From NCBI RefSeq assembly GCF_947495965.1, contig NZ_CANMBB010000001.1, forward strand, positions 372,001 through 436,000: 64,000 bases of DNA. The letters run 5' to 3'. The position numbers and the translations under genes are program-made. Below are positions 2,018 to 37,160 of this stretch, piece by piece. This DNA is from an uncultured Maribacter sp. (GTDB lineage: Bacteria; Bacteroidota; Bacteroidia; Flavobacteriales; Flavobacteriaceae). Numbering within the stretch: position 1 is the first letter of the stretch; each line of letters opens with the position of its first letter. Below the pieces are notes generated by a model. The model ran no database searches and was not told the origin of the DNA. It was given only the letters and a program-made list of their open reading frames with translations.

Positions 2018-2044
2018 CTAGTTCATTATTTTTTATTAGGTTTG
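2012..2044 (+). promoter_or_regulatory. Bacteroidota-type promoter for kduI
   Basis: TAGGTTTG at 2037-2044 matches the Bacteroidota -7 consensus TAnnTTTG exactly. ATTG at 2012-2015 is a one-mismatch -33 element (consensus TTTG) with a 21-bp spacer. Transcription would start around 2050, leaving a leader of about 30 nt to the kduI ATG at 2084. This argues against a start at 2042, inside the -7 element. Confidence 0.65.
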
Positions 2045-2083
2045 TATTTTAATTACATATTTAAAACACCACATAGTATACTT

Positions 2084-2923: not shown

Positions 2924-2925
2924 CT

Positions 2926-3720: not shown

Positions 3721-3730
3721 AAAAACAGAT

Positions 3731-11109: not shown

Positions 11110-12615
11110 ATGAAAAAAATAGTCTTATTACTACTAGCTACAATTATGTTTAGCTGTAAAAGTGAACAAAAACCAAAAGAAAAAACGAAACCAAATATTG
11201 TCTTTATTTTTGCAGATGACATGACCTACTCAGCATTAAACGCTTTGGGGAATAAAGAAATTAAGACCCCTAACCTAGATCGTTTAGTACACCAGGGAAC
11301 AACCTTTACACATGCCTATAATATGGGTGCTTGGAATGGTGCAATATGCGCAGCTTCTAGAGCAATGTTAATTTCGGGAAGAAGTGTATGGAATGTAAAC
11401 AATTTTCGTCAAGAGTGGTCCAAAAATAAAGGATTAGATAAAACTTGGGGGAAATTGATGGAAGGTGCTGGCTATGACACATACATGACAGGAAAATGGC
11501 ATGTAGATGCTAAGGCAGATAGTGTTTTCCAAAATGTAGTACATATTAGACCTGGAATGCCAGGAGATGCATGGGAGCATGAGGATATGGTAAAAACTTT
11601 TAAAGAAATTAAAGGTACAAACATTAAACCCTCTAGTGTTATGCCAGTAGGTTATAATAGACCCTTAAGTAAAACAGATAACTCATGGTCCCCTACGGAT
11701 AAAAAATTTGGCGGTTTTTGGAAAGGCGGTAAACATTGGAGTGAGGTTTTAAAAGATGATGCTTTTTCATTTATGGATAGAGCAGAAAAGAAAGACAATC
11801 CTTTCTTTATGTATTTAGCATTTAATGCCCCTCATGATCCTAGACAAGCACCACAAGAGTTTTTAGATAAATATCCTTTAGAGAATATTAGTTTACCAGA
11901 AAGCTGGATGCCAGAATACACCTATAAAGACGATATGGGTTGCGGTCATAGTTTAAGAGACGAAGCTTTAGCTCCTTTTCCAAGAACAGAATATGCAACC
12001 AAAACACACATACAAGAATACTATGCATTAATAACCCACCTAGATGAACAAATAGGAAAAATTCTAGACCGTATAGAGGCTACGGGGAAAATGGACAACA
12101 CCTACGTTATTTTTACTGCTGATCATGGTTTAGCTGCAGGAAGGCACGGTTTAATTGGAAAACAATCGCAGTTTGATCATAGCATAAGAGCTCCTTTTAT
12201 GATAACAGGGCCAAATGTTCCTAAGAACAAAAAAATAGATGCAGATATTTATTTACAGGATGCAATGGCTACCGCTCTAGATTTAGGCGGTGTTAAAAAA
12301 CCTGACTATGTTTTCTTTAATAGTATTATGGATTTAATTTCTGGAAAACAATCTAAAAGTCACTACGATGCAATTTATAATGGCTATGTAGATTTACAAC
12401 GTATGATCCGTAAAGATGGTTTTAAACTTATTATATACCCTAAAATTGAGAAAGTTCTATTGTATGATTTAAAGAATGATCCAGAAGAAATAACAAATCT
12501 GGCAGAAGATGCTTCTTATAAAGAAAAAGTAACCACTTTATTTAAAGAACTAATTGTTATGCAAAAAGAACTAAATGACCCTCTAAATATAGAAGACATT
12601 TATAGAAAATTATAG
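11110..12615 (+). CDS. S1 sulfatase lipoprotein with CxAxR-type site
   Basis: 501 residues with lipobox FSC (Cys16), FADDMTYSALN metal site, and the maturation motif Cys80-A-A-S-R84 followed by AMLISGR. Alanine at the third position is the CxAxR variant known from clostridial sulfatases and accepted by anaerobic sulfatase-maturing enzymes. GKWHVD, AFNAPHDPRQAP and TADHGLAAGRHG complete the active-site set. This head region resembles choline-sulfatase or iduronate-sulfatase-like S1 groups more than the preceding gene does, so the two probably remove different sulfates. The stop codon at 12613-12615 touches the stop of the convergent AraC gene with no base between. Confidence 0.92.
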   Translation: MKKIVLLLLATIMFSCKSEQKPKEKTKPNIVFIFADDMTYSALNALGNKEIKTPNLDRLVHQGTTFTHAYNMGAWNGAICAASRAMLISGRSVWNVNNFRQEWSKNKGLDKTWGKLMEGAGYDTYMTGKWHVDAKADSVFQNVVHIRPGMPGDAWEHEDMVKTFKEIKGTNIKPSSVMPVGYNRPLSKTDNSWSPTDKKFGGFWKGGKHWSEVLKDDAFSFMDRAEKKDNPFFMYLAFNAPHDPRQAPQEFLDKYPLENISLPESWMPEYTYKDDMGCGHSLRDEALAPFPRTEYATKTHIQEYYALITHLDEQIGKILDRIEATGKMDNTYVIFTADHGLAAGRHGLIGKQSQFDHSIRAPFMITGPNVPKNKKIDADIYLQDAMATALDLGGVKKPDYVFFNSIMDLISGKQSKSHYDAIYNGYVDLQRMIRKDGFKLIIYPKIEKVLLYDLKNDPEEITNLAEDASYKEKVTTLFKELIVMQKELNDPLNIEDIYRKL

Positions 12616-13479
12616 CTAAATATTTATTTGTTTTTTTCTAAAATTGCTAGGTGTTATCCCTACAATTTTTTTAAAAACTTTTAGAAAATAAGAGTAATTA
12701 TAAAACCCTACTCTTATAGAAATATCATGAAAAGAGTCCTTTGTTGTTAATAACAATAATTGGGCTCTTTCTATTCTTCTTAGTTGTATGTATTGGCTTG
12801 GTCCCATAGAATATTGTTTTTTAAAAGTTCTTGAAAAATAATCTTTACTTAAATTACATTGCTTAGCTAAACTTTCTATAGATATTGATTCATGTAAGTT
12901 TTCTGATATATAATTTAAAACCTCTATTAAATTACGTTCAAAATTCTTTTTAGATGCTACTTCATCGTCTATAAACTTTGACAATAAATACTTAATTAGA
13001 GCTTTAGTCTCTAATAATTTGGACACAGACAAAAAGGTATTCGCAGTAGTATAATTCTCTAATATAGAATTCTTAGTATACGTTTTAGGGTCACTATTTA
13101 CTATATTCCTGTTGGGATTTATTTTAAGTAGTCTTTTAAAACTTTCAATATCTAAATCATTTGCTTTTACTTCATATTTAAAATGTACTAAACTATATAC
13201 AGAAACCCCTTTACTGGTTTCTTCAAAAAAACTTATATAGTATTGTTCATGCTTTAAATTACATTTATAACTACTAAAAGTATAACTAGGAATTAAATAT
13301 AAGTTCCCAGGTTTTAACTTAAATTCAGTATTATTATGGTATACAGAGGCATCTCCGCTTGTTATTAAATAAAGTCTAGAAAAAGGACTAATAACATTCG
13401 TAAAATTCCATTTACTATCTAATTTGGCAAAACCAACATTTAATAAATTAATTTTTAAGGGTTCTAATATAGAGAACAT
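12616..13479 (-). CDS. AraC-family regulator (second of a tandem pair)
   Basis: 287 residues: an N-terminal cupin-like sensor half (ISPFSRLYLITSGDASVYH, LKPGNLYLIPS) and a C-terminal double helix-turn-helix with SIESLAKQCNLSKDYFSRTFKK and YSYFLKVFKKIVGITPSNFRK. It has exactly the same length as the upstream neighbour and shares most motifs with it, so they are recent paralogs. It starts 2 nt after the neighbour's stop and is probably in the same transcript. Its own target is unknown; the flanking sulfatases and the divergent cytochrome module are the candidates. Confidence 0.9.
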   Translation of the reverse strand: MFSILEPLKINLLNVGFAKLDSKWNFTNVISPFSRLYLITSGDASVYHNNTEFKLKPGNLYLIPSYTFSSYKCNLKHEQYYISFFEETSKGVSVYSLVHFKYEVKANDLDIESFKRLLKINPNRNIVNSDPKTYTKNSILENYTTANTFLSVSKLLETKALIKYLLSKFIDDEVASKKNFERNLIEVLNYISENLHESISIESLAKQCNLSKDYFSRTFKKQYSMGPSQYIQLRRIERAQLLLLTTKDSFHDISIRVGFYNYSYFLKVFKKIVGITPSNFRKKQINI

Positions 13480-13481
13480 AA

Positions 13482-14345
13482 CTAATTACCTAATTTTTGT
13501 TTTCTAAAAGTAGCAGGTGTAACCCCTGTTAGCTTTTTAAATGTTTTTGATAAATAAGCCCCATCATATAAACCCACTTCTTCTGCTATTTGTTTTAAAG
13601 GTTTTTGAGAGGAAAGTAATAAAAATTGAGCTCTTTCTATTCGTTTTAACTGTATAAAACGGTTTGGTCTAACACCATAAATAGCTTTAAAACTCCTTGA
13701 AAAATAATCTACATTTAAATTACAAAAAATGGCTAGCTGCTCTACACTTATTTCTTCCGATAGGTTTTTAGAAATATAAACTAACACTTTATTTAGGTCT
13801 CCGGTATTAGTATTAGTCTTAACCTCATTCTTAAAACCGTTTGTTATAAATTTAGAAAGTAATATCTCTAAAATAGATTTTGTTTCTAATTGCAACTTTA
13901 AATTATTTTCTAAATCATCACCCATTTTAATTAACCCTCCATTAATAAATAGCTTTGGATCCGAGTTTTCTACCATCTTATTAGGATGCATTTCTAATAA
14001 TCTTTTAAAATAATCTTCCTCTAATTTATTTGCTTCCACCTCATAAACAAACTCATGTAAGTTAAATATAGAAACCCCTGCTGAAACCTCTTCAAAAAAA
14101 CCAGTATAATACTGTTCATGATAATTTTTACATCTGTAATTATTATACGTAAAACTCGGTATTAAATACATATTCCCTGGTTTTAAATTAAAAAAAGAAC
14201 CAGAATGCTCCATTTCTGCAGAACCTTTTGTTATTAAAAACAACCTAACAAAGGTGCTAATTACATTATTATAATCCCATTTATTATCTAATTCTGCATA
14301 ACCTGCATGCAATAAATTAAGCTTTAAATTTTGTAAAAATTCCAT
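13482..14345 (-). CDS. AraC-family regulator (first of a tandem pair)
   Basis: 287 residues with the same layout as its tandem neighbour: sensor half with STFVRLFLITKGSAEMEH and LKPGNMYLIPSFT, helix-turn-helix half with SVEQLAIFCNLNVDYFSRSFKAIYG and GAYLSKTFKKLTGVTPATFRK. It is transcribed divergently from the PSCyt/DUF1553 gene across a 175-bp gap. The conserved PGN-YLIPS loop suggests both paralogs bind related small molecules, most likely a sugar. Paralogy is clear; ligand and regulon are not. Confidence 0.9.
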   Translation of the reverse strand: MEFLQNLKLNLLHAGYAELDNKWDYNNVISTFVRLFLITKGSAEMEHSGSFFNLKPGNMYLIPSFTYNNYRCKNYHEQYYTGFFEEVSAGVSIFNLHEFVYEVEANKLEEDYFKRLLEMHPNKMVENSDPKLFINGGLIKMGDDLENNLKLQLETKSILEILLSKFITNGFKNEVKTNTNTGDLNKVLVYISKNLSEEISVEQLAIFCNLNVDYFSRSFKAIYGVRPNRFIQLKRIERAQFLLLSSQKPLKQIAEEVGLYDGAYLSKTFKKLTGVTPATFRKQKLGN

Positions 14346-14486
14346 CTTAAAACCATTATAATATATTATTCAAAAGACTTTTTTTGAGGAATAAAGAGTA
14401 CCGTTAAACGATATAAAAATATCTTAAAAGTCGGAAATGTACAAATTTTAGACGGATTTAAGCAAGAATTATCATTTTACAAAATA

Positions 14487-14494
14487 TAATTTTG
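14487..14494 (+). promoter_or_regulatory. Bacteroidota -7 element before the cytochrome module
   Basis: TAATTTTG matches TAnnTTTG. It places transcription start near 14500 and leaves a leader of about 20 nt before the ATG at 14521. The TTG at 14500 would then sit at the start site, which supports the ATG. No clear TTTG is present at the -33 distance. The leader holds the small inverted repeat TGATAAATATCA (about 14505-14516). Confidence 0.5.
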
Positions 14495-14520
14495 TTTAGT
14501 TGCATGATAAATATCATTTT

Positions 14521-17500
14521 ATGATAAATTTTAAAGAAATATTATTTTTACTCGCCATAGTTTTAACATCTTGTGGCGGCCCAGAATTACCTGAAAATGT
14601 AGCGCTTGCATATGAAAACCTACCAAAAGAGGTAGATTTTAACCAACATGTAAAGCCTATTTTATCCGATAAATGTTATTTATGTCATGGTCCAGACAAA
14701 GGAGATATAAAAGCAGGATTACAATTACATGAAGCTGAGTTTGCTTATGCAGAGTTACCAGAAAATCCTGGTAAAGTAGCAATTACTCCTGGTAATTTAA
14801 AAAAGAGTGAATTTTTTCATCGTATAATGACCGATGACCCTAAACTAGTTATGCCAGAACCTGGCTCCCACTTAACATTAACCGATTATGAAAAAGCGGT
14901 ATTAATTAAATGGATAGAAGATGGTGCGGAATATAAAGATCACTGGGCTTTTTTAAAACCAAAAAAACATTCAACTCCCATTGTTAAGGAAGACCAACAC
15001 ACAAACAATCCAATAGACAATTTTGTAGTAGCGCAATTAGAACAAAAGAATTTATCTCCTTCTAAAAAAGCAAGTAAAGAAATTTTACTACGTCGTGCTT
15101 CTTTCGACTTAACAGGTTTACCTCCAACAATTGAGGAGATAGATGCCTTTTTAAAAGACAACTCTCCTAATGCTTTTGAAAAACAAATTGACCGTCTTTT
15201 AACCTCTCCCCATTATGGAGAACAAATGACATTAGATTGGATGGATGTTTCCCGCTATGCAGATACACATGGGTATAGCAATGATAGGTACAGAGACACT
15301 TCTCCTTGGAGAGATTGGGTAATTGCTGCCTTCAACAAGAATATGCCTTATGACGAGTTTGTTACTTGGCAGCTTGCCGGAGATATGTTTGAAAATGCTA
15401 CTAAAGAACAAAAATTAGCAACTACATTCAATAGACTACATCCGCAAAATTTAGAAGGTGGAATTATCGATGAAGAATTTAGGTCTGAATACGTGGCAGA
15501 CAGGACTGCTACTGTTAGCCAAGGAATGTTAGGTTTATCTTATGCCTGTGCTAAATGCCATGATCATAAATACGACCCCATATCTCAAAAAAATTATTAC
15601 GAAATGTATAGCTTTTTTAATAACGTGGATGAGACTGGTTTAATTCCTTGGGATCTAGCTACTCCCGTACCCGCAATGTTATTACCTACTGAGGAACAGG
15701 AAAAAGTTGTTGCTTATTTAGAGAAAATTGTAGAAGATACGGAAGAAAGGTTAAACACAACAAGCAAGAATGAAAGTAAGAAGGCACATCAATGGTTAGC
15801 AAATAACGCTCACCAAAAAATCGCTCTAAAAGCAAAGCCAAAAGGCCTAATAGCTGCATTTAATTTTGACAACGAAAAACTTGTTAACGCCGTTGGAGGG
15901 AATGGAACAAACAATATAAGAATGCGCCAACATTTTGTAGATAATGAAAAAGCTATCTATAAAAAAGGAGTTAATGGTAAAGGTCTTTTTATGAATGGAG
16001 ACACTTGGTTAGAGTTAGATAAAATAGGAGTATACAAACGTAATGAGCCTTTTAGCATTTCCATTAAAGTCTTTATACCTAAAGATTTAGAGGAGGGCGT
16101 TATTTTTCACAAAATGCAAGGCCCAGAACTACACAGTTATAGAGGCTACCATTTAAAAATAAAAGACAATAAGCTAGAAGCCCTTTTTGCACATGTTTAT
16201 CCAGACAATGCAATGGTTATAGAATCTTTAAAAGATATTCCTAAAGAAGAATGGGTACAAGTTACCCTCACTTATGACGGTTCCAGTAAAGCAAAAGGAA
16301 TAGGTCTATATATGAACGGTGAAGTTGTAGAAACCAAAACAACTTTTGACAATCTATATAAAGATATTGTTTTTAACAATATGTCAGACCGCATTTATAA
16401 AGGAACAGTTGAGCCAGGGTTAAGAATTGGTGCCATATGGCGTGGAAAAGGTATTAGTAATGCTATCGTAGATGACTTGTTAGTATTCGACAAAGAAATA
16501 AGCGCTATTGAAGTAATGCAAATAAGTGATTCAGAAACACTTAAGAAAATTATTTCCACACCATTTAACACTTTAACAAAAAAAGAAAAACAGCTTTTAA
16601 CTGAATACTATTTAAGTAACAACTCTTCCTCCTATATAACAGTACTGAAAGAATTAGAGGCTAAAAGAAAAGTGTTAGTAGACAGTATTGAGCCCATAAA
16701 GCAAATTATGGTTATGAAGGAGGCTAAAACCCCTAGACAAGCTTATATTTTAGATAGAGGAAATTACGATTCTCCAACTGATTCTGTATTCTCTAATGTA
16801 CCTGAAAAAATATTTCCAATGCCTGAAGGAGCTCCAAAAAACAGACTCGGCCTTGCTAAATGGATAACACATAAAGACAACCCTCTAACAGCAAGAGTTA
16901 CTGTAAATAGGTATTGGCAAAATTTATTTGGCCGAGGATTAGTAAAAACATCAGAAGATTTTGGAAACCAAGGAGAGTTACCTAGCCATCCCAAACTACT
17001 AGATTGGTTAGCTGTAACCTTTATAGAATCTGGATGGGATGTAAAGGCTCTACATAAACTAATCATGCTATCTAACACCTACCAGCAAAGTTCTATAATT
17101 AGTGAAGAACTATTAGCCGTAGATGCTGAAAACAAATGGTTAGCAAGAGGGCCTTCTAACAGATTAACTGGAGAAATGCTAAGAGATAATGCTTTGTATG
17201 CATCTGGTTTATTAAACAAAGAAATTGGAGGGGAAAGTGTAAAACCATACCAACCAGAAGGTCTATGGAAAGTAAATGGAGATACGTATGTACAAGACGG
17301 AGAAGAAGGTTTGTATAGGAGAAGCATGTACACTATTTGGAAACGTACGGTACCTAATCCTACTATTTCTATTTTTGATACTCCCACACGAGATTTATGC
17401 TCTAGTCGTAGACAAAAAACCAACACCCCTTTACAAGCCTTAGTTATTTTAAATGACCCTACGTATATAGAAGCTTCTAGAGTAATTGGAAAGCAAATTA

Positions 17501-17766
17501 CAGAGGCAGAAAATTTAAAGAGTGGTATAACAAAAGCCTTTAGAAAACTAACTGGCAGAAGTATTTCTGAACAAGAACTAAATCTCTTAACCGAATTACA
17601 AAAAACAGAATACGAAAAATTTAATAGTAATAAAGAAAAAGCAAAAGGCTGGTTACAAACAGGAGCTTTTAAAATATCTAAAAATGACAATAAAGCTTTA
17701 ATTGCAGCAAATGCTGTAGTAGCAAGCACTATCATGAATGCAGATGCTAGCATCACAAAAAGATAG
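14521..17766 (+). CDS. PSCyt1-DUF1549-LamG-DUF1553 diheme lipoprotein (PSD1-type)
   Basis: 1081 residues from the ATG at 14521 (MINFKEILFL, lipobox LTSC, Cys18). Order: a planctomycete-type cytochrome c domain with heme motif Cys52-YL-Cys55-His56 (NQHVKPILSDKCYLCHG); DUF1549 (about 155-360) with a second CxxCH in YACAKCHDHKYDPIS; a concanavalin-like LamG insert (about 430-620, with YDGSSKAKGIGLYMNG); and DUF1553 (about 770-1010, with NRYWQNLFGRGLVKTSEDFG and CSSRRQKTNTPLQALVILNDPTY). It has the family's full length. Such proteins are abundant in Planctomycetes and Verrucomicrobia, usually next to a DUF1501 gene as here. Their reaction is not established to my knowledge; two heme sites and a glycan-binding-like fold suggest periplasmic redox chemistry, possibly on carbohydrate. 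Confidence 0.9.
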   Translation: MINFKEILFLLAIVLTSCGGPELPENVALAYENLPKEVDFNQHVKPILSDKCYLCHGPDKGDIKAGLQLHEAEFAYAELPENPGKVAITPGNLKKSEFFHRIMTDDPKLVMPEPGSHLTLTDYEKAVLIKWIEDGAEYKDHWAFLKPKKHSTPIVKEDQHTNNPIDNFVVAQLEQKNLSPSKKASKEILLRRASFDLTGLPPTIEEIDAFLKDNSPNAFEKQIDRLLTSPHYGEQMTLDWMDVSRYADTHGYSNDRYRDTSPWRDWVIAAFNKNMPYDEFVTWQLAGDMFENATKEQKLATTFNRLHPQNLEGGIIDEEFRSEYVADRTATVSQGMLGLSYACAKCHDHKYDPISQKNYYEMYSFFNNVDETGLIPWDLATPVPAMLLPTEEQEKVVAYLEKIVEDTEERLNTTSKNESKKAHQWLANNAHQKIALKAKPKGLIAAFNFDNEKLVNAVGGNGTNNIRMRQHFVDNEKAIYKKGVNGKGLFMNGDTWLELDKIGVYKRNEPFSISIKVFIPKDLEEGVIFHKMQGPELHSYRGYHLKIKDNKLEALFAHVYPDNAMVIESLKDIPKEEWVQVTLTYDGSSKAKGIGLYMNGEVVETKTTFDNLYKDIVFNNMSDRIYKGTVEPGLRIGAIWRGKGISNAIVDDLLVFDKEISAIEVMQISDSETLKKIISTPFNTLTKKEKQLLTEYYLSNNSSSYITVLKELEAKRKVLVDSIEPIKQIMVMKEAKTPRQAYILDRGNYDSPTDSVFSNVPEKIFPMPEGAPKNRLGLAKWITHKDNPLTARVTVNRYWQNLFGRGLVKTSEDFGNQGELPSHPKLLDWLAVTFIESGWDVKALHKLIMLSNTYQQSSIISEELLAVDAENKWLARGPSNRLTGEMLRDNALYASGLLNKEIGGESVKPYQPEGLWKVNGDTYVQDGEEGLYRRSMYTIWKRTVPNPTISIFDTPTRDLCSSRRQKTNTPLQALVILNDPTYIEASRVIGKQITEAENLKSGITKAFRKLTGRSISEQELNLLTELQKTEYEKFNSNKEKAKGWLQTGAFKISKNDNKALIAANAVVASTIMNADASITKR

Positions 17767-17793
17767 ATTGTAATCCTATAAATTCAGAAAATC

Positions 17794-19311
17794 ATGTGTA
17801 ACGATCACCATCATAAAAAGTTAACATCTAACAATAGAGATTTACAAAAAATTGAAAAACAACTAGACCGAAGACACTTTTTAAAAAAGACATCTTTAGG
17901 GCTAGGCGCTATAGCATTAGGAAGCCTATTAGGTTCCGAAAAATTACTAGCTAATATTAGTAATGAAAGTGCTCAAGAAGCTATATTAAAAAACTATAAT
18001 AAGAATAGATTAGGTTTACCACATCATTTACCTAAAGCAAAAAGAATTATTTACCTATTCCAAAGTGGCGGGCCATCACAATTAGATTTATTTGATTATA
18101 AGCCTAAGTTAACCGACATGTTTGGTAAAGAACTACCAGAATCTATTATTGGTGGGCAAAGACTTACAGGAATGAGCGGTAGCCAAAGTACATTACCAGT
18201 TGCACCGTCTTCTTTTAATTTTAAACAATACGGGGAATCTAGAGCTTGGGTTAGTGATGCCATGCCTTATTTATCAGAAGTAGTAGATGATTTATGCTTT
18301 ATAAAAGGAATGCAAACAGACCAAATAAACCATACTCCAGCTATTACATTTATGCAAACTGGGAACCAATTACCAGGCAGGCCATCTATTGGTTCTTGGT
18401 TAAGTTATGGTTTAGGTTCCGATAATGAGAATTTACCAACCTTTATAACTTTAGTTTCTAAAAATGGAAAAGGACAACCTTTAAAAGCTAGCTTATGGGG
18501 TAATGGCTTTTTACCAACAGAACATCAAGGCGTTCAATTTAGATCTGGGAAAGATCCAGTTTTATACTTAAGTGACCCTGAAAATTATGATGGTCAGGAC
18601 AGAAGACATATGTTAGATTACTTGGGTCATTTAAATAACATACAAAAAGATGCGTACGGTGACCCAGAAATACAGGCTAGAATGGCACAGTATGAAATGG
18701 CGTTTAAAATGCAAACTTCTGTTCCCGAAGTAACCGACTTATCGGATGAACCAGAACATATTTTTGAGATGTACGGTAAAGATAGTAGAGACCCAGGAAC
18801 CTATGCTGCAAATTGTTTAATGGCTAGAAAACTCCTAGAAAAAGGAGTGAAATTTGTACAACTATATCACCAAGGTTGGGACCAGCATAATTACTGCCCT
18901 GGAGGGGTAAAAAGTCAATCCAGAAAAACTGACCAAGGTACTGCAGCTTTAATTAAAGATTTAAAGCAACGTGGCATGCTAGATGACACTTTGGTAATTT
19001 GGGGAGGAGAATTTGGAAGAACAGTTTATTCTCAAGGACAATTAACTAAAGATAACTATGGTCGTGACCACCACCCAAAAGCATTTACCATGTGGATGGC
19101 AGGTGCAGGTGTAAAACCAGGATTTACGTATGGAGAAACAGATGACTTTAGTTATAACGTAGTTAAAGACCCCGTACATGTACACGATTTTCATGCAACA
19201 TTACTACACTTATTAGGTGTAGACCATGAACGACTAACTTTTAAACACCAAGGAAGACGTTACAGACTAACTGATGTTCATGGTAATGTAGTAAAAGATT
19301 TATTAACCTAA
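17794..19311 (+). CDS. DUF1501 protein with Tat signal
   Basis: 505 residues. A twin-arginine signal (LDRRHFLKKTSLGLGAIALG, about residues 25-45) indicates export of a folded, probably cofactor- or metal-bearing protein. The body has the DUF1501 features: IYLFQSGGPSQLDLFDYKP near the N-terminus, FVQLYHQGWDQHNYCPGG, and WGGEFGRT with HHPKAFTMWMAG. DUF1501 belongs to the alkaline phosphatase/sulfatase-like fold as far as I know, with metal-binding His and Asp residues, but its substrate is unknown. It begins 27 nt after the DUF1553 gene; this pairing is the standard one in Planctomycetes. The His-rich start (MCNDHHHKK) precedes the twin arginines, so a later start is possible but none is clearly better. 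Confidence 0.9.
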   Translation: MCNDHHHKKLTSNNRDLQKIEKQLDRRHFLKKTSLGLGAIALGSLLGSEKLLANISNESAQEAILKNYNKNRLGLPHHLPKAKRIIYLFQSGGPSQLDLFDYKPKLTDMFGKELPESIIGGQRLTGMSGSQSTLPVAPSSFNFKQYGESRAWVSDAMPYLSEVVDDLCFIKGMQTDQINHTPAITFMQTGNQLPGRPSIGSWLSYGLGSDNENLPTFITLVSKNGKGQPLKASLWGNGFLPTEHQGVQFRSGKDPVLYLSDPENYDGQDRRHMLDYLGHLNNIQKDAYGDPEIQARMAQYEMAFKMQTSVPEVTDLSDEPEHIFEMYGKDSRDPGTYAANCLMARKLLEKGVKFVQLYHQGWDQHNYCPGGVKSQSRKTDQGTAALIKDLKQRGMLDDTLVIWGGEFGRTVYSQGQLTKDNYGRDHHPKAFTMWMAGAGVKPGFTYGETDDFSYNVVKDPVHVHDFHATLLHLLGVDHERLTFKHQGRRYRLTDVHGNVVKDLLT

Positions 19312-19323
19312 ACCAACCAAATA

Positions 19324-20454
19324 ATGTCTACAAGAAGAAATTTTATTAAAAAAACAGGGCTAGCAGGTGCCGCTATAGCTTCCTCTTCCTCTGCTTTTGG
19401 AGCCTCTATTATTACAAAAAAAGAAAGTGCTAAACATTTACTTAATGAAACAGATACTATTCTTGGACATGGAGATTATAAATATAAATTAACTAAAAAT
19501 TGGGCTCAAATAAGCTCTACAAGAATCCCTTTACTTAATTGCCATGAAATGGTAATGGATAGTAAGGGTAGGTTAATTATGATTGGAGACCACCCGCAAA
19601 ACAATATCTTAATTTTTGATAAATCTGGAAAGTTATTAGACTATTGGGGAACTGCATATCAAGGTGGGCATGGTTTAACAATTCATGACGAAGGTGGAGA
19701 AGACATGCTATATATTGCAGATTCTGGTTGGGCATTAGGAAAAAATAACAAAATGGTAAAACACAACGGACGTATTGCCAAAACTACTGTGGATGGAAAA
19801 GTTATTTTTGATATTGGCCACCCAGTAACTATTGGAGTTTATAAACCAGGGGAATATTTTTGCCCAACAGAGACCGCTATTGGTCCAAACGGAGATATTT
19901 ATGTTGCAGATGGTTATGGCATGAGTAGAGTTATTCAATATGATGCTTACGGAAGATATATTAGGCATTGGGGAGGGAGTGATAACCCAGACAAAAATTA
20001 CCAAATAAAAAGTGCCCATGGCGTTGCTATAGATTATAGAGACAAAAACAACCCAATGGTTGTAGTTACTTCTAGAAGTCAAGCTAGTTTTAAGTGGTTC
20101 ACATTAGATGGTAAGTATATTAAAACATTACACTTACCAAATATGCAAGTATGTAGACCCGTTTTTGATGATAATAACTTATATGCTGGTGTTTGTTGGT
20201 CGCAACCAAAAGATGGAAAAACAAATTGGAGAGACCACACGGGATTTGTAACCATTTTAGAAGGTGACAAAGTAGTATCCAATCCAGGTGGCACAGAACC
20301 TGTTTACAAAGATGGAGAACTACAAGAAACCTTCCAAATAGATGAAAAACCTATATTACACGGCCATGATGTTTGTATTGATGAAGATAAAAATGTATAC
20401 ATATGTCAGTGGAATGCAAATCATTCTGCCCCATACAAATTAGAGCGCGTTTAA
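19324..20454 (+). CDS. NHL-repeat six-bladed propeller protein with Tat signal
   Basis: 376 residues starting with a twin-arginine signal (STRRNFIKKTGLAGAAIASS). The rest is a propeller of NHL-type blades: VMDSKGRLIMIGDHPQNNILIFDKSGKLLDYWG, then ETAIGPNGDIYVADGYGMSRVIQYD, GVAIDYRDKNN, and a final HDVCIDEDKNVYICQWNANH. The layout resembles peptidyl-hydroxyglycine lyase-like or lactonase-like propellers, which are often metal-dependent. It begins 12 nt after the DUF1501 gene and shares its Tat export route, so the two probably act together in the periplasm. No catalytic residues can be assigned with confidence. Confidence 0.85.
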   Translation: MSTRRNFIKKTGLAGAAIASSSSAFGASIITKKESAKHLLNETDTILGHGDYKYKLTKNWAQISSTRIPLLNCHEMVMDSKGRLIMIGDHPQNNILIFDKSGKLLDYWGTAYQGGHGLTIHDEGGEDMLYIADSGWALGKNNKMVKHNGRIAKTTVDGKVIFDIGHPVTIGVYKPGEYFCPTETAIGPNGDIYVADGYGMSRVIQYDAYGRYIRHWGGSDNPDKNYQIKSAHGVAIDYRDKNNPMVVVTSRSQASFKWFTLDGKYIKTLHLPNMQVCRPVFDDNNLYAGVCWSQPKDGKTNWRDHTGFVTILEGDKVVSNPGGTEPVYKDGELQETFQIDEKPILHGHDVCIDEDKNVYICQWNANHSAPYKLERV

Positions 20455-20475
20455 AAATTATTTACAGTTTATTTT

Positions 20476-21867
20476 ATGAATCAAGCACCAGATATAGTTT
20501 TATTCTTAGGAAGATTTCATCCCCTTATAGTACACATGCCAATAGGCTTTTTGTTTTTTGCTTTTTTATTAGAAATAGTTAGCAAATGGAAAAAAAACGA
20601 AACCCTTCTCTCTGGCATTCCTTTAGCTCTTTTAATGGGAGGAATTACCGCTACAGTATCTTGTATTCTTGGATATATGCTCTCTTTAAGTGGCGATTAC
20701 GAAGAAAGTGCTGTAGATAGCCATTTTTGGTTTGGAATAGCAACTACTGTAGTTGCATTTATAGCTTGGCTTATTAGGATAGATAAAATTAAACTCCCAA
20801 AAGGAAATACTTTTAAGGGTAATATTGCAACCCTTACGCTACTTGTTATTCTTTTGAGTATTACTGGGCACTATGGAGGTAATTTAACTCACGGTAGCGA
20901 TTATTTGCTTAAATATTTGCCTTTCGGTAAAGAAGAGAAGAAAGAATTAGTAGCAATTACAAAAATAGAAGATGCTGTTGTCTATGATTATTTAGTAGAG
21001 CCAATCTTAGATAACAAATGCACAAGCTGTCATAACTCTAGCAAGAAAAAAGGCGGTTTATCTTTAACAGACAGTACCTCTATCTCTAAAGGAGGAAAAA
21101 ATGGAGATGCCCTAATTGCGGGAAACTCATCAAAATCAGAAATGATAAAAAGAGTTCTCCTAGACCCCCACAATGAGGATTTTATGCCGCCAGAAGGCAA
21201 AACACCATTAACAGAAGAGGAAATAGCAATATTAACCTATTGGATAGACAATGCAAATGCTAATTATTCTTCTAAAGTTGCAGCAATAGAAACTCCTGAA
21301 AACATTACTCAAATTGCTTCTAATATGCTAGACATTCCTATTGAGGGTCAAAAAGGAGCAACTAAACTACCTACGGTTTCTGTAATAAACCAAGAAACTA
21401 TAAACGCAATTACTGCGCAAGGATTTACATTAAGAGAACTTGTGTTTGAATCTAGCTTATATGAAGTTGTTTTACCTCCTAAAAGCACTAAAAACAGCAC
21501 TCCTGAAGAGTTAGCAAAGAAAATAGAATCTTTATCTAGTATAAAAGATAATATTCTTTGGTTTTATGCCGATAACAATGGAATTACAGACGAGCATTTA
21601 AGTAAAATAGCGGAGTTTAAAAACTTACAAAAATTAAGCCTAAATAATAATACTATATCTGATAAAGGAATTGCATTTTTAGGAAATTTAAATAGTCTTA
21701 GTAGCCTTAATATTTACAACACTCAAGTTTCCAAGAACTCCCTATCTACATTTTTAAATATGAAAAACTTAGAGCATGTATATGCTTGGAAGACTTCTTT
21801 AAAAGAAGAAGATTTAGAATCTTTAAAAGAAAAAGAGAATGCTCCAAATATTGGTCTAGGAAAGTAA
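20476..21867 (+). CDS. Membrane cytochrome: DUF2231-like domain, cytochrome c and leucine-rich repeats
   Basis: 463 residues in three parts. The first about 155 residues form four membrane helices with paired histidines (FHPLIVHMPIGF and ITGHYGGNLTHG), a DUF2231-like pattern often thought to bind heme b. Next is a planctomycete-type cytochrome c domain (about 170-265) with CTSCH and a likely Met ligand in DFMPPEGK. The C-terminal third carries leucine-rich repeats (FKNLQKLSLNNNTISDKGIAFLGNL). It follows the NHL gene by 21 nt. It is the natural membrane electron acceptor for the soluble members of the module. Heme c attachment is supported by the motif; heme b is inference. Confidence 0.85.
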   Translation: MNQAPDIVLFLGRFHPLIVHMPIGFLFFAFLLEIVSKWKKNETLLSGIPLALLMGGITATVSCILGYMLSLSGDYEESAVDSHFWFGIATTVVAFIAWLIRIDKIKLPKGNTFKGNIATLTLLVILLSITGHYGGNLTHGSDYLLKYLPFGKEEKKELVAITKIEDAVVYDYLVEPILDNKCTSCHNSSKKKGGLSLTDSTSISKGGKNGDALIAGNSSKSEMIKRVLLDPHNEDFMPPEGKTPLTEEEIAILTYWIDNANANYSSKVAAIETPENITQIASNMLDIPIEGQKGATKLPTVSVINQETINAITAQGFTLRELVFESSLYEVVLPPKSTKNSTPEELAKKIESLSSIKDNILWFYADNNGITDEHLSKIAEFKNLQKLSLNNNTISDKGIAFLGNLNSLSSLNIYNTQVSKNSLSTFLNMKNLEHVYAWKTSLKEEDLESLKEKENAPNIGLGK

Positions 21868-22014: not shown

Positions 22015-23700
22015 ATGTTAGCGCTTTGTAAAAAATTGCTTGTATTAGCAATCTATGTCTTTGTTTTCTTTTTATTCTCTTGCAATGAAAAAAAAGAAGA
22101 ACCTGCCAAAAAACCAAATATTATTTACATAATGGCAGATGACCATACCACACAAGGTTTTGGAATTTATGGAAGTCGTTTAGCTAATTTAAACCCTACT
22201 CCTACCTTAGACAAAATTGCTAATGAAGGTATTATTTTTGAAAATTGTTTTGTTAACAACGCTATATGTGTGCCTAGTAGAGCAGCAATTTTATCTGGCC
22301 AACGCGCGCAAACCAATGGCGTTTTAGATTTAGAAGGTATTCTCCCAATAGCAAAACAATATTTACCACAAGAAATGAAAAAGCTTGGTTACCAAACTGC
22401 TATTGTTGGTAAATGGCATTTGCATGAAGAGCCAGCTTCTTTTGACTACTATCAAGTATTACCTGTACAAGGAAAATACTTTAATCCAGAATTTAGAATT
22501 CAAGGAGACAAACCATGGCCAAATAACGTTGTTAAAACAGAAGGACACTCTTCTGACATGGTTACAGACATAAGTTTAGATTGGCTAAAAAACAAAAGAG
22601 ACCCTAACAAACCTTTCTTCTTAATGCATCATTTTAAAGCACCGCATGATGATTTTGAATATGCTCCAAGATATGAAGATTACTTAGCAGATACTTTTAT
22701 TCCAGAACCAGAAAGTTTATATGATAATAAAAACAATGGCTCTATTGCTACAAGAGGAAAAAACGATTCTTTAACACGTATTATTGGATCTTCTGTTTCT
22801 CATAGAAATTTAATACGTAACCAAGCACATAATATTTATTGGAATGACACTACTTTACATAGAAAGTACGGAAACGCAAGGGATATAAAGCCAGAACAGC
22901 ATGTGAAATTTGAGCTCACTCCTGATGAAAAAACATATACTAGTAAAGTATACCAAGATTATCTTAAAAAATATCTTCGTTGTGTAAAAGGTGTAGATGA
23001 TAATGTAAAAAGATTAATAGATTACCTAGAAAAAGAAAACCTTTTAGAGGAAACAATTATTGTTTACACTGGCGACCAAGGGTTTATGCTTGGTGAACAT
23101 GATTATATTGATAAAAGATGGATGTATGATGAAGCCATGCGTATGCCATTCTTTGTTCGTTACCCAAAAACTATTGCTAGTGGAACAAGAACTGACGCTA
23201 TTATAAACAATACGGACTTTGCCCCTACAATGATAGAACTAGCTGGCGGTAAGACTCCAGATTACATGCAAGGAAAAAGCTTTAAATCTATTTTAGAAAC
23301 AGGAAAAGAACCTGCAAATTGGCAAAAATCTACATACTACAGGTATTGGATGCACTTAGCTCACAGACATCAAAACCCTGCGCATTTTGGTGTAAGAACT
23401 AAAGATTATAAACTTATTTTCTTTTATGGAAAATATTGGGTAGATACAGACAATCCAGATGCAGAATACAACAAAAAAAGTTGGGGTAATGATTATGCAA
23501 ACCATACTCCTGCCGCTTGGGAATTTTATGATTTAAAGAAAGACCCTAAAGAAATGAATAATGCATATAACAATCCTGCCAATAAAGAAATCATTGCGGA
23601 ATTAAAAAAAGAACTACTAAAGCTACGTAAGGATTTAAATGAAACAGATGTTAACTACCCTCACATACAAAAAGTCATAGATGCGCATTGGAATGATTAA
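22015..23700 (+). CDS. S1 sulfatase lipoprotein
   Basis: 561 residues, lipobox LFSC (Cys23), metal site MADDHTTQGFGIYG, maturation motif Cys85-V-P-S-R89 followed by AAILSGQRAQTNG, then VGKWHLHEEP and TGDQGFMLGEHDYIDKRW. The last motif and RTKDYKLIFFYG near the C-terminus are typical of a large S1 group in marine Bacteroidota resembling iduronate and glycan endo/exo sulfatases. A 147-nt gap after the cytochrome gene suggests its own promoter, though no clear -7 element is visible. It precedes a LacZ-type GH2 by 22 nt, so the pair probably removes a sulfate and then the exposed galactose. Confidence 0.92.
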   Translation: MLALCKKLLVLAIYVFVFFLFSCNEKKEEPAKKPNIIYIMADDHTTQGFGIYGSRLANLNPTPTLDKIANEGIIFENCFVNNAICVPSRAAILSGQRAQTNGVLDLEGILPIAKQYLPQEMKKLGYQTAIVGKWHLHEEPASFDYYQVLPVQGKYFNPEFRIQGDKPWPNNVVKTEGHSSDMVTDISLDWLKNKRDPNKPFFLMHHFKAPHDDFEYAPRYEDYLADTFIPEPESLYDNKNNGSIATRGKNDSLTRIIGSSVSHRNLIRNQAHNIYWNDTTLHRKYGNARDIKPEQHVKFELTPDEKTYTSKVYQDYLKKYLRCVKGVDDNVKRLIDYLEKENLLEETIIVYTGDQGFMLGEHDYIDKRWMYDEAMRMPFFVRYPKTIASGTRTDAIINNTDFAPTMIELAGGKTPDYMQGKSFKSILETGKEPANWQKSTYYRYWMHLAHRHQNPAHFGVRTKDYKLIFFYGKYWVDTDNPDAEYNKKSWGNDYANHTPAAWEFYDLKKDPKEMNNAYNNPANKEIIAELKKELLKLRKDLNETDVNYPHIQKVIDAHWND

Positions 23701-23707
23701 GTAATAA

Positions 23708-26950
<3,243 letters not shown>

Positions 26951-27881: not shown

Positions 27882-30512
27882 TTATTCTACAACAAACTTA
27901 GAAGTTGCTTTTTCTGCTTCATCATTTTTAAAAACAATAACGTAAACTCCTTTGGCAAGGCTATTAACCATTATCTTGTTTTCTATAGTACGCATAGACT
28001 GTTCTTTTACCAACTCGCCATTTACATTATAAATGTATACCATAGCATTTAACAATTCTTTAGAAACAACAACAGATAGCTCTTCTTTTACAGGGCTGGG
28101 GTACACATAAAAAGAAGTGTCTACAAAAAAGTTTTCTTCATAAATACCTTGACAATTTTTATCTGTTACTACTTTTAGTTTATTGTCTCCTTCTTTTAAT
28201 GGTAATTTAATTTCATTAGAGCTTGTATGTATCTCTCTCCCATTAATTTCTATGAAATAGTTACTCCCTCCATCTAATTTTAAAGTAATTGCTTTTTTGG
28301 CAACACCTACTTTAGAGGATACATTTAATGCTTCAGGTTCTTTTATTAGCACTTCAAATTCTGCTTTATAATCAGGAAAAGATGGCAATGTAATACTAAT
28401 AATATAGGATCCTGGTTTTAAATTTTCTACATTCAATTCGTTCGTAAAACTAAAATTCTCATTATATCCACTTCCAGTAATGTTTGCACTATAATTCTGT
28501 GCAGTAATAGTTTTAATATTTATAACACCATTGTTCTTATTTATACATGTAGCATCTACTACTTTAACTTTAAAATTGTTTCTTGGTAATTTTGATGGAT
28601 GAAACTCTCTAACATTAGAACTAAAATTAAACACCTGTAAAGCCATACTACTTATATGGCCTCCTGCATCGGGAAATTCTACTGATACAGTATTGTTTTC
28701 TTCTAAAACATCATATGCAACTGGAATTTCTAAAGTACCAAAAAAACGACCTTTATCTGCTTGATTATAACCGCGCCAGTCTTCTGGAACAACTACACTA
28801 GTACCATTTACTTTTACTATTGGAATTAACTCTTTTCCATGATCTCTACCAATACCAACTCGCAATACAGCTTCTCCATACATTGCACTTTTTACAACTC
28901 CATTAATCGTAAAGGTATTTTCCTGCGATGCTATAATTGGCTTTAAATAATCAGTCGCATAATACTTAACTTCATCCGAGGTTTCGTCTACAGTTAAAGC
29001 TTCTGCAAATGTATATTCCAAAATAATAGTACTTTCGGCTCCAAGTACCACACTAGAAATAGAACTAGTAAAAGTTTCTTCTTCTAAAACAGGATTACTA
29101 CCATTAAGAGTTAAATGCCTTTTTAAAACACTTGCTACTGCTATATCATAAGCATCAAACACATTTAAATTTATAGTTACAGGATTAAATTCTAGATTAT
29201 TTAATATTACATATCCTTTATCTCCATCTATATAAGCATCTACCTGGATATCTAGATCCGAAGATTTAGTATCAATCCTTGTTCCTTTTACGTTTTTCCA
29301 TAAATCATAAAATTTAACTCGGTCCGTATAAACCCATTCTCCAGTGTAACTATTTGGCTCATTAGTTTTTCTCATTAAACGAGCAACATACGGAACATTT
29401 AAAGCAGAATTATATCCCCATTCTGCTTTAACAATAGTAAAAGGTATTGCAATAGCAATAGCATCTGGACGTTCCATAAAAGACATCATTTGAGAATTCT
29501 GTGCTTTTAAAAACAACCAATCTCTATAAGGGCTCCATTGCTCATTATTATAGTCATGTGTTTGTGCACCGTATTCTGATATTACATATTGCTTGGTATG
29601 GCCTAACCTAATCATACTATAATGATCCATCATATCAAAAGTAGCTTCTACATTGCTCCCTGATCGCAAATCAACTTTTCCGCCAATTGTAGGAAAATCA
29701 TATAAATGCCAAGACCAAAAATCCATTTTTTCTCCTGCTACATCTACAAACAATTTATCTCTATTAATCCAACGCTGAAAATCTCCAGTTTCAAAATCTG
29801 GAAACGCTACAGTATATCCTCCTATTTTTAAGTTAGGATTTTGAACTCTAATAGCATCTGCAACTTCTACATGAAAGTCTGCGATTTCTTGTAATGAATT
29901 GGTAAAATTCTTTTTACCACCCAAGGCTTCATAAGCTGGTTCATTTATAACTTCTACCCATGTAGGTTCTTCCTGCCCGTTATCTCCATGAAACTCATTA
30001 AAATAACGCCCCATATATTCTCCTGTAGCGATTGCACTTGCTAATTTCCATCCAGTATTACTAGTAGCTCTTTGGCTTTCTCCTGTCCAAAAAGGATGCA
30101 ATTGGCCTGCTATTACATGATTTTTCCTATTTTCATAAGGATGTAAATTGGGTTTTGAAGCATAATTATTTCGTGCAATTAAACCTTTAGAAGCTATTTT
30201 GGCGGGGTCTGCAAAGCCAGGTCTGGCAGGATCTTCTTCCATATTATTTAAATTCCAGGTAATGCCTCCTGTATCTCTCCCTAAATAAACATCATAACCA
30301 TTTAAAAAGTCATCTCTTAAATCGGATGTAAAATTATCTCCATCCCACTCTCCCTCTATCTGATTTGCATGGATGGTAATAAACTTAGAACGGTCAAATT
30401 CTGAAATATTCCCAACAGTATGTTTAACATTTAAATTTACATCTACACTTACTTGTGCATAAAAAGGGAAATATGTAAAACATAGAAACACTCCAATAAT
30501 TAGCTTATTCAT
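27882..30512 (-). CDS. GH86 beta-porphyranase/beta-agarase with type IX sorting domain
   Basis: 876 residues. A signal peptide (ends FPFYAQ) precedes a GH86-like catalytic domain: EFDRSKFITIHANQ near the N-terminus, acid/base Glu191 in VEVINEPAYE, WSWHLYDFP, and nucleophile Glu313 in YVISEYGAQTHD, then beta-sandwich domains to about residue 640. The final 75 residues (VYPSPVKEELSVVVSK, NGELVKEQS, LAKGVYVIVFKN) are a type A sorting domain for the type IX secretion system. GH86 enzymes cut beta-1,4 bonds in agarose or porphyran in endo fashion, so this is the probable chain-opening enzyme of the locus. Porphyran is favoured over agarose by the sulfatase-rich, GH117-free context, but this is inference. 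Confidence 0.82.
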   Translation of the reverse strand: MNKLIIGVFLCFTYFPFYAQVSVDVNLNVKHTVGNISEFDRSKFITIHANQIEGEWDGDNFTSDLRDDFLNGYDVYLGRDTGGITWNLNNMEEDPARPGFADPAKIASKGLIARNNYASKPNLHPYENRKNHVIAGQLHPFWTGESQRATSNTGWKLASAIATGEYMGRYFNEFHGDNGQEEPTWVEVINEPAYEALGGKKNFTNSLQEIADFHVEVADAIRVQNPNLKIGGYTVAFPDFETGDFQRWINRDKLFVDVAGEKMDFWSWHLYDFPTIGGKVDLRSGSNVEATFDMMDHYSMIRLGHTKQYVISEYGAQTHDYNNEQWSPYRDWLFLKAQNSQMMSFMERPDAIAIAIPFTIVKAEWGYNSALNVPYVARLMRKTNEPNSYTGEWVYTDRVKFYDLWKNVKGTRIDTKSSDLDIQVDAYIDGDKGYVILNNLEFNPVTINLNVFDAYDIAVASVLKRHLTLNGSNPVLEEETFTSSISSVVLGAESTIILEYTFAEALTVDETSDEVKYYATDYLKPIIASQENTFTINGVVKSAMYGEAVLRVGIGRDHGKELIPIVKVNGTSVVVPEDWRGYNQADKGRFFGTLEIPVAYDVLEENNTVSVEFPDAGGHISSMALQVFNFSSNVREFHPSKLPRNNFKVKVVDATCINKNNGVINIKTITAQNYSANITGSGYNENFSFTNELNVENLKPGSYIISITLPSFPDYKAEFEVLIKEPEALNVSSKVGVAKKAITLKLDGGSNYFIEINGREIHTSSNEIKLPLKEGDNKLKVVTDKNCQGIYEENFFVDTSFYVYPSPVKEELSVVVSKELLNAMVYIYNVNGELVKEQSMRTIENKIMVNSLAKGVYVIVFKNDEAEKATSKFVVE

Positions 30513-31056: not shown

Positions 31057-32376
31057 TTAATTAGGTTGTTTTTTATAAGTGCTATATCCGTAAAATGCAA
31101 CAACTGCAAGACAAATTAATGGTAAAATAAACGAAAAATTAACTTCTGGAATAAAGCCTAAAACTTTAACATCCGAAAATCCAGAACCTCCCCAATCTAA
31201 AATTCCACCTTGTAAAACAGGCATTAACGCACCACCTACAATAGCCATAACTAAACCTGCGGAACCAATTTTAGCTTCATCTCCCATATCTTTTAAAGCA
31301 ATACCATAAATGGTTGGAAACATAATTGACATAAAAAGAGATACAGCAACTAAAGAAACTAAGCCAACCATTCCAGACAACAACACTGCTCCCGCGCAAC
31401 AAATAACACCACCAATTCCAAAAAGCATCAACATCTTAGAAGGGTTAATTTTTTGCATTAAAGCGGTTCCAATCCAACGACCTAAAAGAAAAGAGATCAT
31501 GGCTGCAACATTAAAGTAAGTTGCTGTTAGCTCCATACCAAAAGTTTCATTTATGTTATCTACATATTGAAAAATATAGGTCCAACACATGATTTGAGCG
31601 CCTACGTAAAATGCCTGAGCCAAAACACCAAATTTATAATTACCATTAGCAAACAACTTTGAGAATGATTCTGAAAGTGACATTTTATCCTCTTCGGCAG
31701 TTTTTGGCATTTTTGTGAATATAATAATTGCCATAATCACTAAAACCAAAATACCTAATCCTATATAAGGAACGCTTATAATACCTAAATCATTTTCTCT
31801 AACTGTAGCCAATTCTTCAGATGTTAAAGCTTTATAAGCTTCTTCTGTATAATCGTCAGAACGTAAAGCACTAATTACAAATACTTGCGCTATTATCATC
31901 CCAGACAAAGAACCTATAGGGTTAAATGCTTGTGCTAAATTTAAACGTTGCGTTGCTGTTTCTTTATCTCCTAAAGCTAAAATTAATGGGTTTGAGGTGG
32001 TTTCTAAAAAGGCTAATCCACAGGTAATAACCCATAAAGAAATTAAAAAATATGTAAAAGTTTCATTAGCTGCTGCAGGATAAAACAAAAATGCTCCTAA
32101 TGCATACAAAGAAAGTCCTAAAATAATACCAGATTTATAACTATATTTTCTAATAAACAACGCTGCGGGTAAAGCCATAAAAAAATATCCAAAGTAAAAT
32201 GCAAATTGTACTAAAGATGCTTCCATATTAGACAACTCTGGCATTACCTTTTTAAATGCAGATACCATGGGGTTAGTTAAGTCATTTGCAATTCCCCATA
32301 AGGCAAACAAAGATGTTATAATTACAAAAGGAAATAACAAATCCTTACTTACAACTGGAATTTTCTTAGTACTCAT
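31057..32376 (-). CDS. fucP: FucP-like L-fucose/L-galactose:proton symporter
   Basis: 439 residues with 12 predicted membrane helices of the FucP branch of the major facilitator superfamily. The two acidic residues important in E. coli FucP (Asp46 and Glu135) have counterparts at Asp32 (ANDLTNPM) and Glu125 (LAFLETTSNPLI). E. coli FucP is known to carry L-galactose and D-arabinose as well as L-fucose. It lies between the SDR and mutarotase genes with small gaps (37 nt and 5 nt). This forms a compact uptake and first-oxidation cassette. Confidence 0.9.
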   Translation of the reverse strand: MSTKKIPVVSKDLLFPFVIITSLFALWGIANDLTNPMVSAFKKVMPELSNMEASLVQFAFYFGYFFMALPAALFIRKYSYKSGIILGLSLYALGAFLFYPAAANETFTYFLISLWVITCGLAFLETTSNPLILALGDKETATQRLNLAQAFNPIGSLSGMIIAQVFVISALRSDDYTEEAYKALTSEELATVRENDLGIISVPYIGLGILVLVIMAIIIFTKMPKTAEEDKMSLSESFSKLFANGNYKFGVLAQAFYVGAQIMCWTYIFQYVDNINETFGMELTATYFNVAAMISFLLGRWIGTALMQKINPSKMLMLFGIGGVICCAGAVLLSGMVGLVSLVAVSLFMSIMFPTIYGIALKDMGDEAKIGSAGLVMAIVGGALMPVLQGGILDWGGSGFSDVKVLGFIPEVNFSFILPLICLAVVAFYGYSTYKKQPN

Positions 32377-37147: not shown

Positions 37148-37160
37148 TATTTGTTATAAA

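Follow-up and report, generated by a model that had tools for sequence, protein, structure and literature searches.

A conserved four-gene module with heme motifs and a PAL-like propeller in a sulfatase locus of Maribacter: a possible redox-plus-lyase system

Results

The four genes

The window analyzed here is a stretch of 64,000 nucleotides from an uncultured Maribacter sp. (contig NZ_CANMBB010000001.1, positions 372,001 to 436,000 of the forward strand). At positions 14521-21867, it contains four closely spaced genes, g1 to g4, with gaps of 27, 12, and 21 nt in the list of open reading frames (ORFs) of the window. By Pfam, g1 (14521..17766, plus strand, from an ATG; the ORF as listed starts at TTG 14500) encodes a lipoprotein with a PSCyt1 heme-type domain, a PSCyt2/DUF1549 domain with a second CxxCH, a LamG lectin-like domain (Laminin_G_3), and a PSD1/DUF1553 domain. 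The product of g2 (17794..19311, plus) is a DUF1501 protein with an RRxF motif of the twin-arginine translocation (Tat) type and a C-terminal part that is sulfatase-like, without the formylglycine motif. That of g3 (19324..20454, plus) is a Tat-type NHL β-propeller with a site (H116, Y198, H232, H348, and possibly R251) like that of peptidyl-hydroxyglycine lyase (PAL). In g4 (20476..21867, plus), a four-helix DUF2231 domain with five invariant histidines is joined to a PSCyt1 heme-type domain and a weak leucine-rich repeat (LRR) match. An earlier sequence-only reading of this DNA had given the same positions, gaps, and domain make-up, with which the ORF coordinates, Pfam, and hydropathy agree.

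The related loci discussed below are the best 80 of 130 g1 relatives in a contig search, mostly from Flavobacteriaceae; 67 of the 80 are full loci (at least 23 kb). Gene clusters were built by single-linkage BLAST and took their names from a single representative each, scanned with Pfam; divergent members escape them (the SusC cluster does not include the SusC-profile hits in L019, L061, and L063). Among the records found, the host genome is nearest to those of Maribacter (L010, uncultured Maribacter, 91% identity over g1). The module contains three CxxCH motifs, as stated earlier, and they are kept in every relative counted, the two of g1 in 80/80 ORFs and the one of g4 in 57/57. There is no CxxCH in g2 or g3.

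The Pfam scores of g1 are 45.3 (PF07635), 289.1 (PF07583), and 344.5 (PF07587) bits, all over the curated cut-offs, and its CxxCH motifs are predicted to bind c heme covalently. A lipobox, LTSC, is spotted by eye, and a lipobox-like pattern occurs in 67/80 g1 relatives. Near the second heme motif, residues F303, R305, H307, E312, G314, E318, E319, and Y324 are invariant over 73 sequences, as are C343, C346, H347, D348, H349, and D352; one row at 19% identity (L057:78-3428) in this alignment (A7) lowers the number of invariant positions. This conserved polar cluster could be catalytic. The model of full-length g1 has a pLDDT of 85.7 and that of a LamG-free paralog a pLDDT of 83.5 (pTM 0.86). 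With the latter model, taken for the DUF1549/DUF1553 core, Foldseek finds nothing in the PDB at E ≤ 0.001 (best E 1.3). With full-length g1, the best 50 of 961 hits are mostly lectin-like binding domains (arabinanase, clostridial neurotoxins). The arabinanase domain 5hon, the best PDB similarity of g1, matches the LamG columns in a profile search; because of this match and of the alignment lengths, the hits are assigned to the LamG domain, and they were rejected as clues to function. The N-terminal heme region has weak profile matches, hydrazine synthase alpha (E 0.0055) and FoxE (E 0.11), of the kind that a c-type domain would give. Two identities for g1, a diheme peroxidase of the CCP/MauG type (PF03150) and a lytic polysaccharide monooxygenase (LPMO), were rejected for lack of a Pfam match at E ≤ 0.001; at this threshold, no LPMO catalytic domain is present in any of g1-g4. 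The profile similarity between PSD1 and DUF1800 is weak (prob 18.6%, 38 columns), and homology stayed unproven.

The g2 protein matches PF07394 over the full profile (530.9 bits, positions 1-390 of 390). An RRxF motif is found near the N-terminus in 82/82 DUF1501 ORFs and in 49/49 NHL ORFs of the relatives. Both proteins had been read as Tat-exported: g3 passes the cut-off of the Tat model TIGR01409, and for g2, since this model is not matched, the Tat-type signal is the RRxF motif. Comparison of DUF1501 with sulfatases by hhalign gives prob 84.6% over 92 columns in the C-terminal part. The formylglycine motif of S1 sulfatases, [CS]xPxR, occurs in 0/82 DUF1501 ORFs versus 43/61 in the sulfatase cluster, and for this reason g2 was rejected as a sulfatase. 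In the host genome, there are four DUF1501 matches, two adjoining a PSCyt gene and two a DUF1800 gene. The last two (C10:~41-43 kb and C1:~700-703 kb) cover the profile in part and lie away from the listed sulfatases.

A phmmer search with g3 finds the PAL structure 3fvz at E 7e-7. The 3fvz fragments PHGLSID, SDGYCNSR, PHSLAL, and PHDIV are set against GGHGLT (H116), ADGYG (Y198), AHGV (H232), and GHDV (H348) of g3; Y198, H232, and (weakly) H348 are aligned by the program, and H116 is paired by eye. The catalytic tyrosine of PAL aligns (SDGY with ADGY198), the PAL arginine is outside the printed alignment, and R251 is a guess. The three histidines of PAL, in the numbering we assume, are taken here to be its zinc ligands. 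PAL is described as a zinc propeller that has six blades and a Tyr-Arg dyad (PMC6529398, PMC10303134). H116, Y198, H232, and H348 are invariant in 38/38 aligned g3 sequences, and the PAL-like residues are also kept in 14 further g3-type genes (17 rows for 15 genes, including g3 of the window, with rows weaker than E 1e-40 dropped). In carrying the three histidines and the tyrosine of PAL, a new observation, g3 looks like a PAL-type metallo-lyase. Further PAL-like members are found beside a trehalase (L157) and, together with a DHDPS-type gene, in a SusCD locus (L159). Another PAL-like NHL gene, without a Tat signal, occurs together with a NanM-type epimerase, a DHDPS-type lyase, and SusCD in a locus of the sialic-acid type (L161, 8884-16352), where the 18 kb read contain no CxxCH ORF.

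In g4, Pfam matches DUF2231 and PSCyt1, with the LRR match below the cut-off. All 36 g4 sequences compared, down to 27% identity, share H15, H20, H83, H132, and H139, the CxxCH, and an MPP motif. Hydropathy gives four helices at about 13-37, 43-71, 82-105, and 115-135. Because K/R residues at 37-40 and 101-114 put both termini outside in the predicted topology, the five histidines and the c-type domain are placed on the periplasmic side, where the histidines probably hold b heme. The gene immediately after g4 in five of the related loci (L042 at 17317-18486, L019, L021, L027, and L032) is a diheme gene of the CCP_MauG type, one representative having been scanned.

Conservation of the gene set and a second copy

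The four genes form a real module. DUF1501 occurs in 76 of the 80 related loci, the DUF2231-cytochrome in 53, and NHL in 49; after dereplication, DUF1501 is present in 24/24 loci. Another copy of the set occurs in the host genome at C1:~925-932 kb, immediately after an HTCS regulator and with its genes in another order: NHL, PSCyt (without LamG), DUF1501, and DUF2231/PSCyt1. There is no sulfatase in the 20 kb read near this second copy, and no relatives of the glycan-enzyme clusters were found there, in a region that was not scanned whole with Pfam. Its membrane cytochrome (L007, 12056-14167) has 703 aa and is longer than g4 of the window, which lacks its additional C-terminal part. Beside the second copy (L007, 29-1927), ORFs read by eye look like carotenoid-synthesis genes.

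In 395 Bacteroidota genomes, g3-type genes (E ≤ 1e-40) are found in 46 and, among the matches listed, PSD1 (E ≤ 0.001) in 49; within this listing, 38 genomes have both and 11 have PSD1 alone. The distance was compared for 45 of 53 g3 places, the other 8 being in PSD1-free genomes: 22/45 lie within 10 kb of a PSD1 gene among the matches listed, with several families represented. Because the second copy is reordered and g3 adjoins PSD1 across several families, the set is taken to be a functional one.

Regulators and glycan genes around the module

An AraC-family regulator (13482..14345, minus) is divergent from the module, and a second AraC-type regulator (12616..13479, minus), 48.6% identical to it, is its tandem paralog. 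The divergent AraC pair described earlier is thus divergent with respect to the module, the two genes themselves lying in tandem on the same strand. The intergenic region between the AraC gene and g1 (14346..14520) contains, at 14487, a single match, TAATTTTG, to what we take to be the Bacteroidota promoter consensus; the claim that the module has its own promoter is weakly supported by this candidate. The AraC cluster is present in 55/80 related loci, and an AraC or HTCS regulator in 51/67 full loci.

The module lies, as noted before, between sulfatases, one at 11110-12615 and one directly after it (22015..23700, plus), both by Pfam; several related loci likewise have a sulfatase after the module. 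Downstream, there are a GH2 β-galactosidase-type enzyme (23723..26950, plus) and a porphyranase (27882..30512, minus; BPA_C, Porphyrn_cat_1), which we take to belong to GH86 and which points to a red-algal galactan as substrate. The window also holds GH29, GH97, SusC/SusD, and several sulfatases. Immediately upstream of the window (L008), there are relatives (65-79% identity) of amidohydrolase, mannitol-dehydrogenase-type, altronate-dehydratase-type, and zinc-dependent alcohol dehydrogenase (zinc-ADH) genes; relatives of these flank the module in other loci too, and a matching short-chain dehydrogenase/reductase (SDR; 32414-33205) and an MFS gene (31057-32376) are in the window. This gene set would fit L-galactose breakdown, under the pathways as we assume them.

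Porphyran users demethylate 6-O-methyl-galactose with a gene neighborhood of P450, redox partners, and such an ADH (PMC10033563). A P450 cluster is found in 7/80 loci, and at least two of the P450, zinc-ADH, ferredoxin reductase, and esterase genes in 9/67 full loci. In the window, this set is represented by a zinc-ADH and esterase pair (36032-37964), related to genes beside the P450 cluster elsewhere; the single P450 match of the host is on contig C7. Elsewhere in the window, KduI-type isomerase, SDR, and DUF4861 genes (2042-4897) precede an HTCS regulator and suggest uronate-type breakdown beside the galactan genes, and a 759-aa FAD-dependent oxidoreductase (PF12831; 54944-57223) adjoins GH97 and a sodium-solute symporter.

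The full loci were compared with 40 control regions taken at fixed positions in three genomes; all 40 were retained, also the one with module genes (L166). A sulfatase is near in 28/67 full loci versus 3/40 controls and any glycan marker in 54/67 versus 7/40, counts that favor the real loci because the clusters were defined on them. After grouping at 75% identity (24 groups), a sulfatase is found in 12/24 and any marker in 17/24 (controls, 7/40). The sulfatase profile was built partly from the real loci. Because the loci are related to one another, the Fisher values of the comparison are descriptive. About 10% of the length of the host genome lies within about 10 kb of a sulfatase.

Discussion

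The observation made in the sequence-only reading is confirmed, and its interpretation is partly supported. We propose, with a probability of roughly 40%, that the module works in the periplasm, linked to the inner membrane, as a combined redox and lyase system whose substrates are sugars or oligosaccharides from the sulfated galactans of red algae, for example porphyran. Three sets of observations argue for it: the conservation of the set, its reordered second copy, and the co-occurrence of g3 with PSD1; the conserved CxxCH motifs of g1 and g4, the periplasmic histidines of g4, and the PAL-like residues of g3; and a glycan context that exceeds the controls, together with the red-algal genes (porphyranase, GH2, GH29, and the L-galactose-type set). 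A redox chain had been suggested before, and the heme motifs, the Tat-type signals, and the candidate b/c-type membrane protein agree with it. The addition "rather than hydrolysis" is too simple, because part of g2 is sulfatase-like and g3 is PAL-like, both without CxxCH. We see g3 best as an enzyme in its own right, recruited to a redox module, rather than as an electron carrier.

In the proposed scheme, the LamG domain of g1 would hold the saccharide, and the DUF1549/DUF1553 core with the second heme would oxidize the sugar at a carbon adjoining a C-O bond. The bond so activated would then be cut by g3, the zinc-type propeller, as PAL cuts the hydroxylated carbon after oxidation by PHM. DUF1501 would be a near-constant partner of g1, either structural or a metal enzyme. 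The c hemes would exchange electrons with the quinone pool by way of g4, the flow being either from sugar to chain or from quinol to an oxygen-activating heme. The most specific form, a PAM-like two-step oxidative cleavage of an ether or glycosidic bond, in which the heme enzyme oxidizes or hydroxylates the sugar carbon with electrons exchanged via g4 before the propeller cuts, is rather improbable. If true, it would define a class of carbohydrate-active redox systems that is new and differs from LPMOs, from P450 demethylation, and from LacABC.

PAL (3fvz) and g3 share the propeller, the three histidines in HG/HS/HD motifs, and the tyrosine of DGY, and PAL, like g3 in the scheme, works after an oxidizing enzyme. 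However, overall similarity is low, g3 is a Tat-type bacterial protein of sugar loci, and no PHM domain is matched by Pfam in g1-g4. LacABC has a flavin (GMC) subunit, and Pfam finds no FAD domain in g1-g4. The LacABC lactose 3-dehydrogenase with DUF1080 (PMC9007349) is similar in its membrane-linked periplasmic sugar oxidation followed by bond cleavage, but in the module both the flavin and the DUF1080 domains are absent by Pfam. Pairs of DUF1501 and DUF1800 with a Tat motif are reported (PMC5122149); there also, a Tat-type DUF1501 is beside a second large protein, whereas in the module the partner is of another family (PSD1).

A carbohydrate role, offered in the sequence-only reading as a plausible undescribed function, had already been proposed for PSCyt proteins of Verrucomicrobia (PMC5615132). 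In that phylum, PSCyt genes with CBM-like domains occur near sulfatases, beside two unknown families, and nothing is said to be known of their functions (PMC5615132). The PSD1/DUF1553 and DUF1549 domains abound in Planctomycetes, with 41 copies of each in Rhodopirellula baltica (PMC2754498). The domain set, the CBM-like insertion, and the sulfatase neighborhood are those found here, but the passages available from these two papers describe no four-gene set with a PAL-like NHL and a DUF2231-cytochrome, and the adjoining AraC/HTCS-type regulators set the Bacteroidota modules apart from the descriptions given there. In keeping with the earlier statement that no reaction is established for DUF1549, DUF1553, or DUF1501, the passages found in the full-text literature searched (few subscription journals, no bioRxiv preprints) contain no tested reaction for these, PSCyt, or DUF1800.

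Several observations weigh against the redox-plus-lyase proposal. Generic NHL propellers score on g3 as well as PAL does, and the match to PAL is strong within a single blade region; the segment that contains the third histidine gives 2-4 bits. Among the PSD1 matches listed, g3-type genes occur without PSD1 in 8/46 genomes; in five PSD1-free g3 regions read, no ORF of at least 120 aa contains a CxxCH, so that g3 need not depend on a redox partner. The g4 and NHL genes are missing from part of the loci (present in 53/80 and 49/80, some loci being incomplete), and DUF1501 is absent in 3/67 full loci. From the module of three Zobellia loci (L013, L014, and L036), g4 is missing, and the gene directly after NHL is a sulfatase. 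Module relatives free of glycan genes, named in the sequence-only reading as evidence against a glycan role, do exist in part: 12/67 full loci, six of them from Arenibacter, have no glycan marker by the cluster method (9/67 when the SusC-profile hits in L019, L061, and L063 are included), and no sulfatase lies close to the second copy. The glycan link thus stands as an enrichment over controls and not as an obligatory association.

The oxidation itself could be carried out elsewhere, with the module draining electrons into respiration for a 3-keto-glycoside pathway: the sugar would be oxidized by a Gfo/Idh/MocA dehydrogenase exported through Tat, PSCyt would take the electrons, and NHL would eliminate the glycosidic bond. 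Such a Gfo/Idh/MocA cluster is present in 19/67 full loci versus 3/40 control regions, with RRxF in 24/25 of its ORFs, and periplasmic LacABC with DUF1080 is a known parallel (PMC9007349). We nevertheless consider this pathway unlikely, as 48/67 full loci have no gene of the cluster and no relative of it at E ≤ 1e-20 is present in the window, the two 20-kb flanks, or the second-copy region. The six Arenibacter loci and the second copy would agree better with a respiratory accessory of a general kind, handling oxygen or peroxide and sharing no more than its regulation with the polysaccharide genes, as would the CCP_MauG-type gene after g4 in 5/80 loci (one representative scanned) and, in Rhodopirellula, a proposed ECF regulator of a PSD1/DUF1549 gene that is up under three stresses (PMC2754498). 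Such an accessory function would leave the enrichment beside glycan genes, the LamG domain, and the AraC or HTCS regulators of 51/67 full loci to be accounted for, and we doubt it.

A hydrolytic system, with DUF1501 as a working esterase (of sulfate or phosphate) and hemes that sense the redox state or are structural, would suit the sulfatase-rich locus and the resemblance of the DUF1501 profile to that of sulfatases (prob 84.6%, 92 columns). It appears improbable in view of the formylglycine motif, 0/82 in DUF1501 against 43/61 in the sulfatase cluster, and of the two other, partial DUF1501 matches of the host, which are beside DUF1800 and away from the listed sulfatases.

Gene deletion has been achieved in Zobellia galactanivorans (PMC5698469). 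In the available parts of two Zobellia transcriptome papers (PMC5613140, PMC5698469), no line is tied to the module, whose carriage by Z. galactanivorans itself was not checked. The link between PSCyt genes and sulfatases was known before from Verrucomicrobia (PMC5615132). To this are added a compact version with four genes, in Maribacter and Cellulophaga relatives, and one with three genes, in three Zobellia species. The red-algal context and the active-site hypothesis for g3 make the function of the numerous PSD1/DUF1549 domains testable, and the function of the module would bear on the turnover of seaweed carbon.

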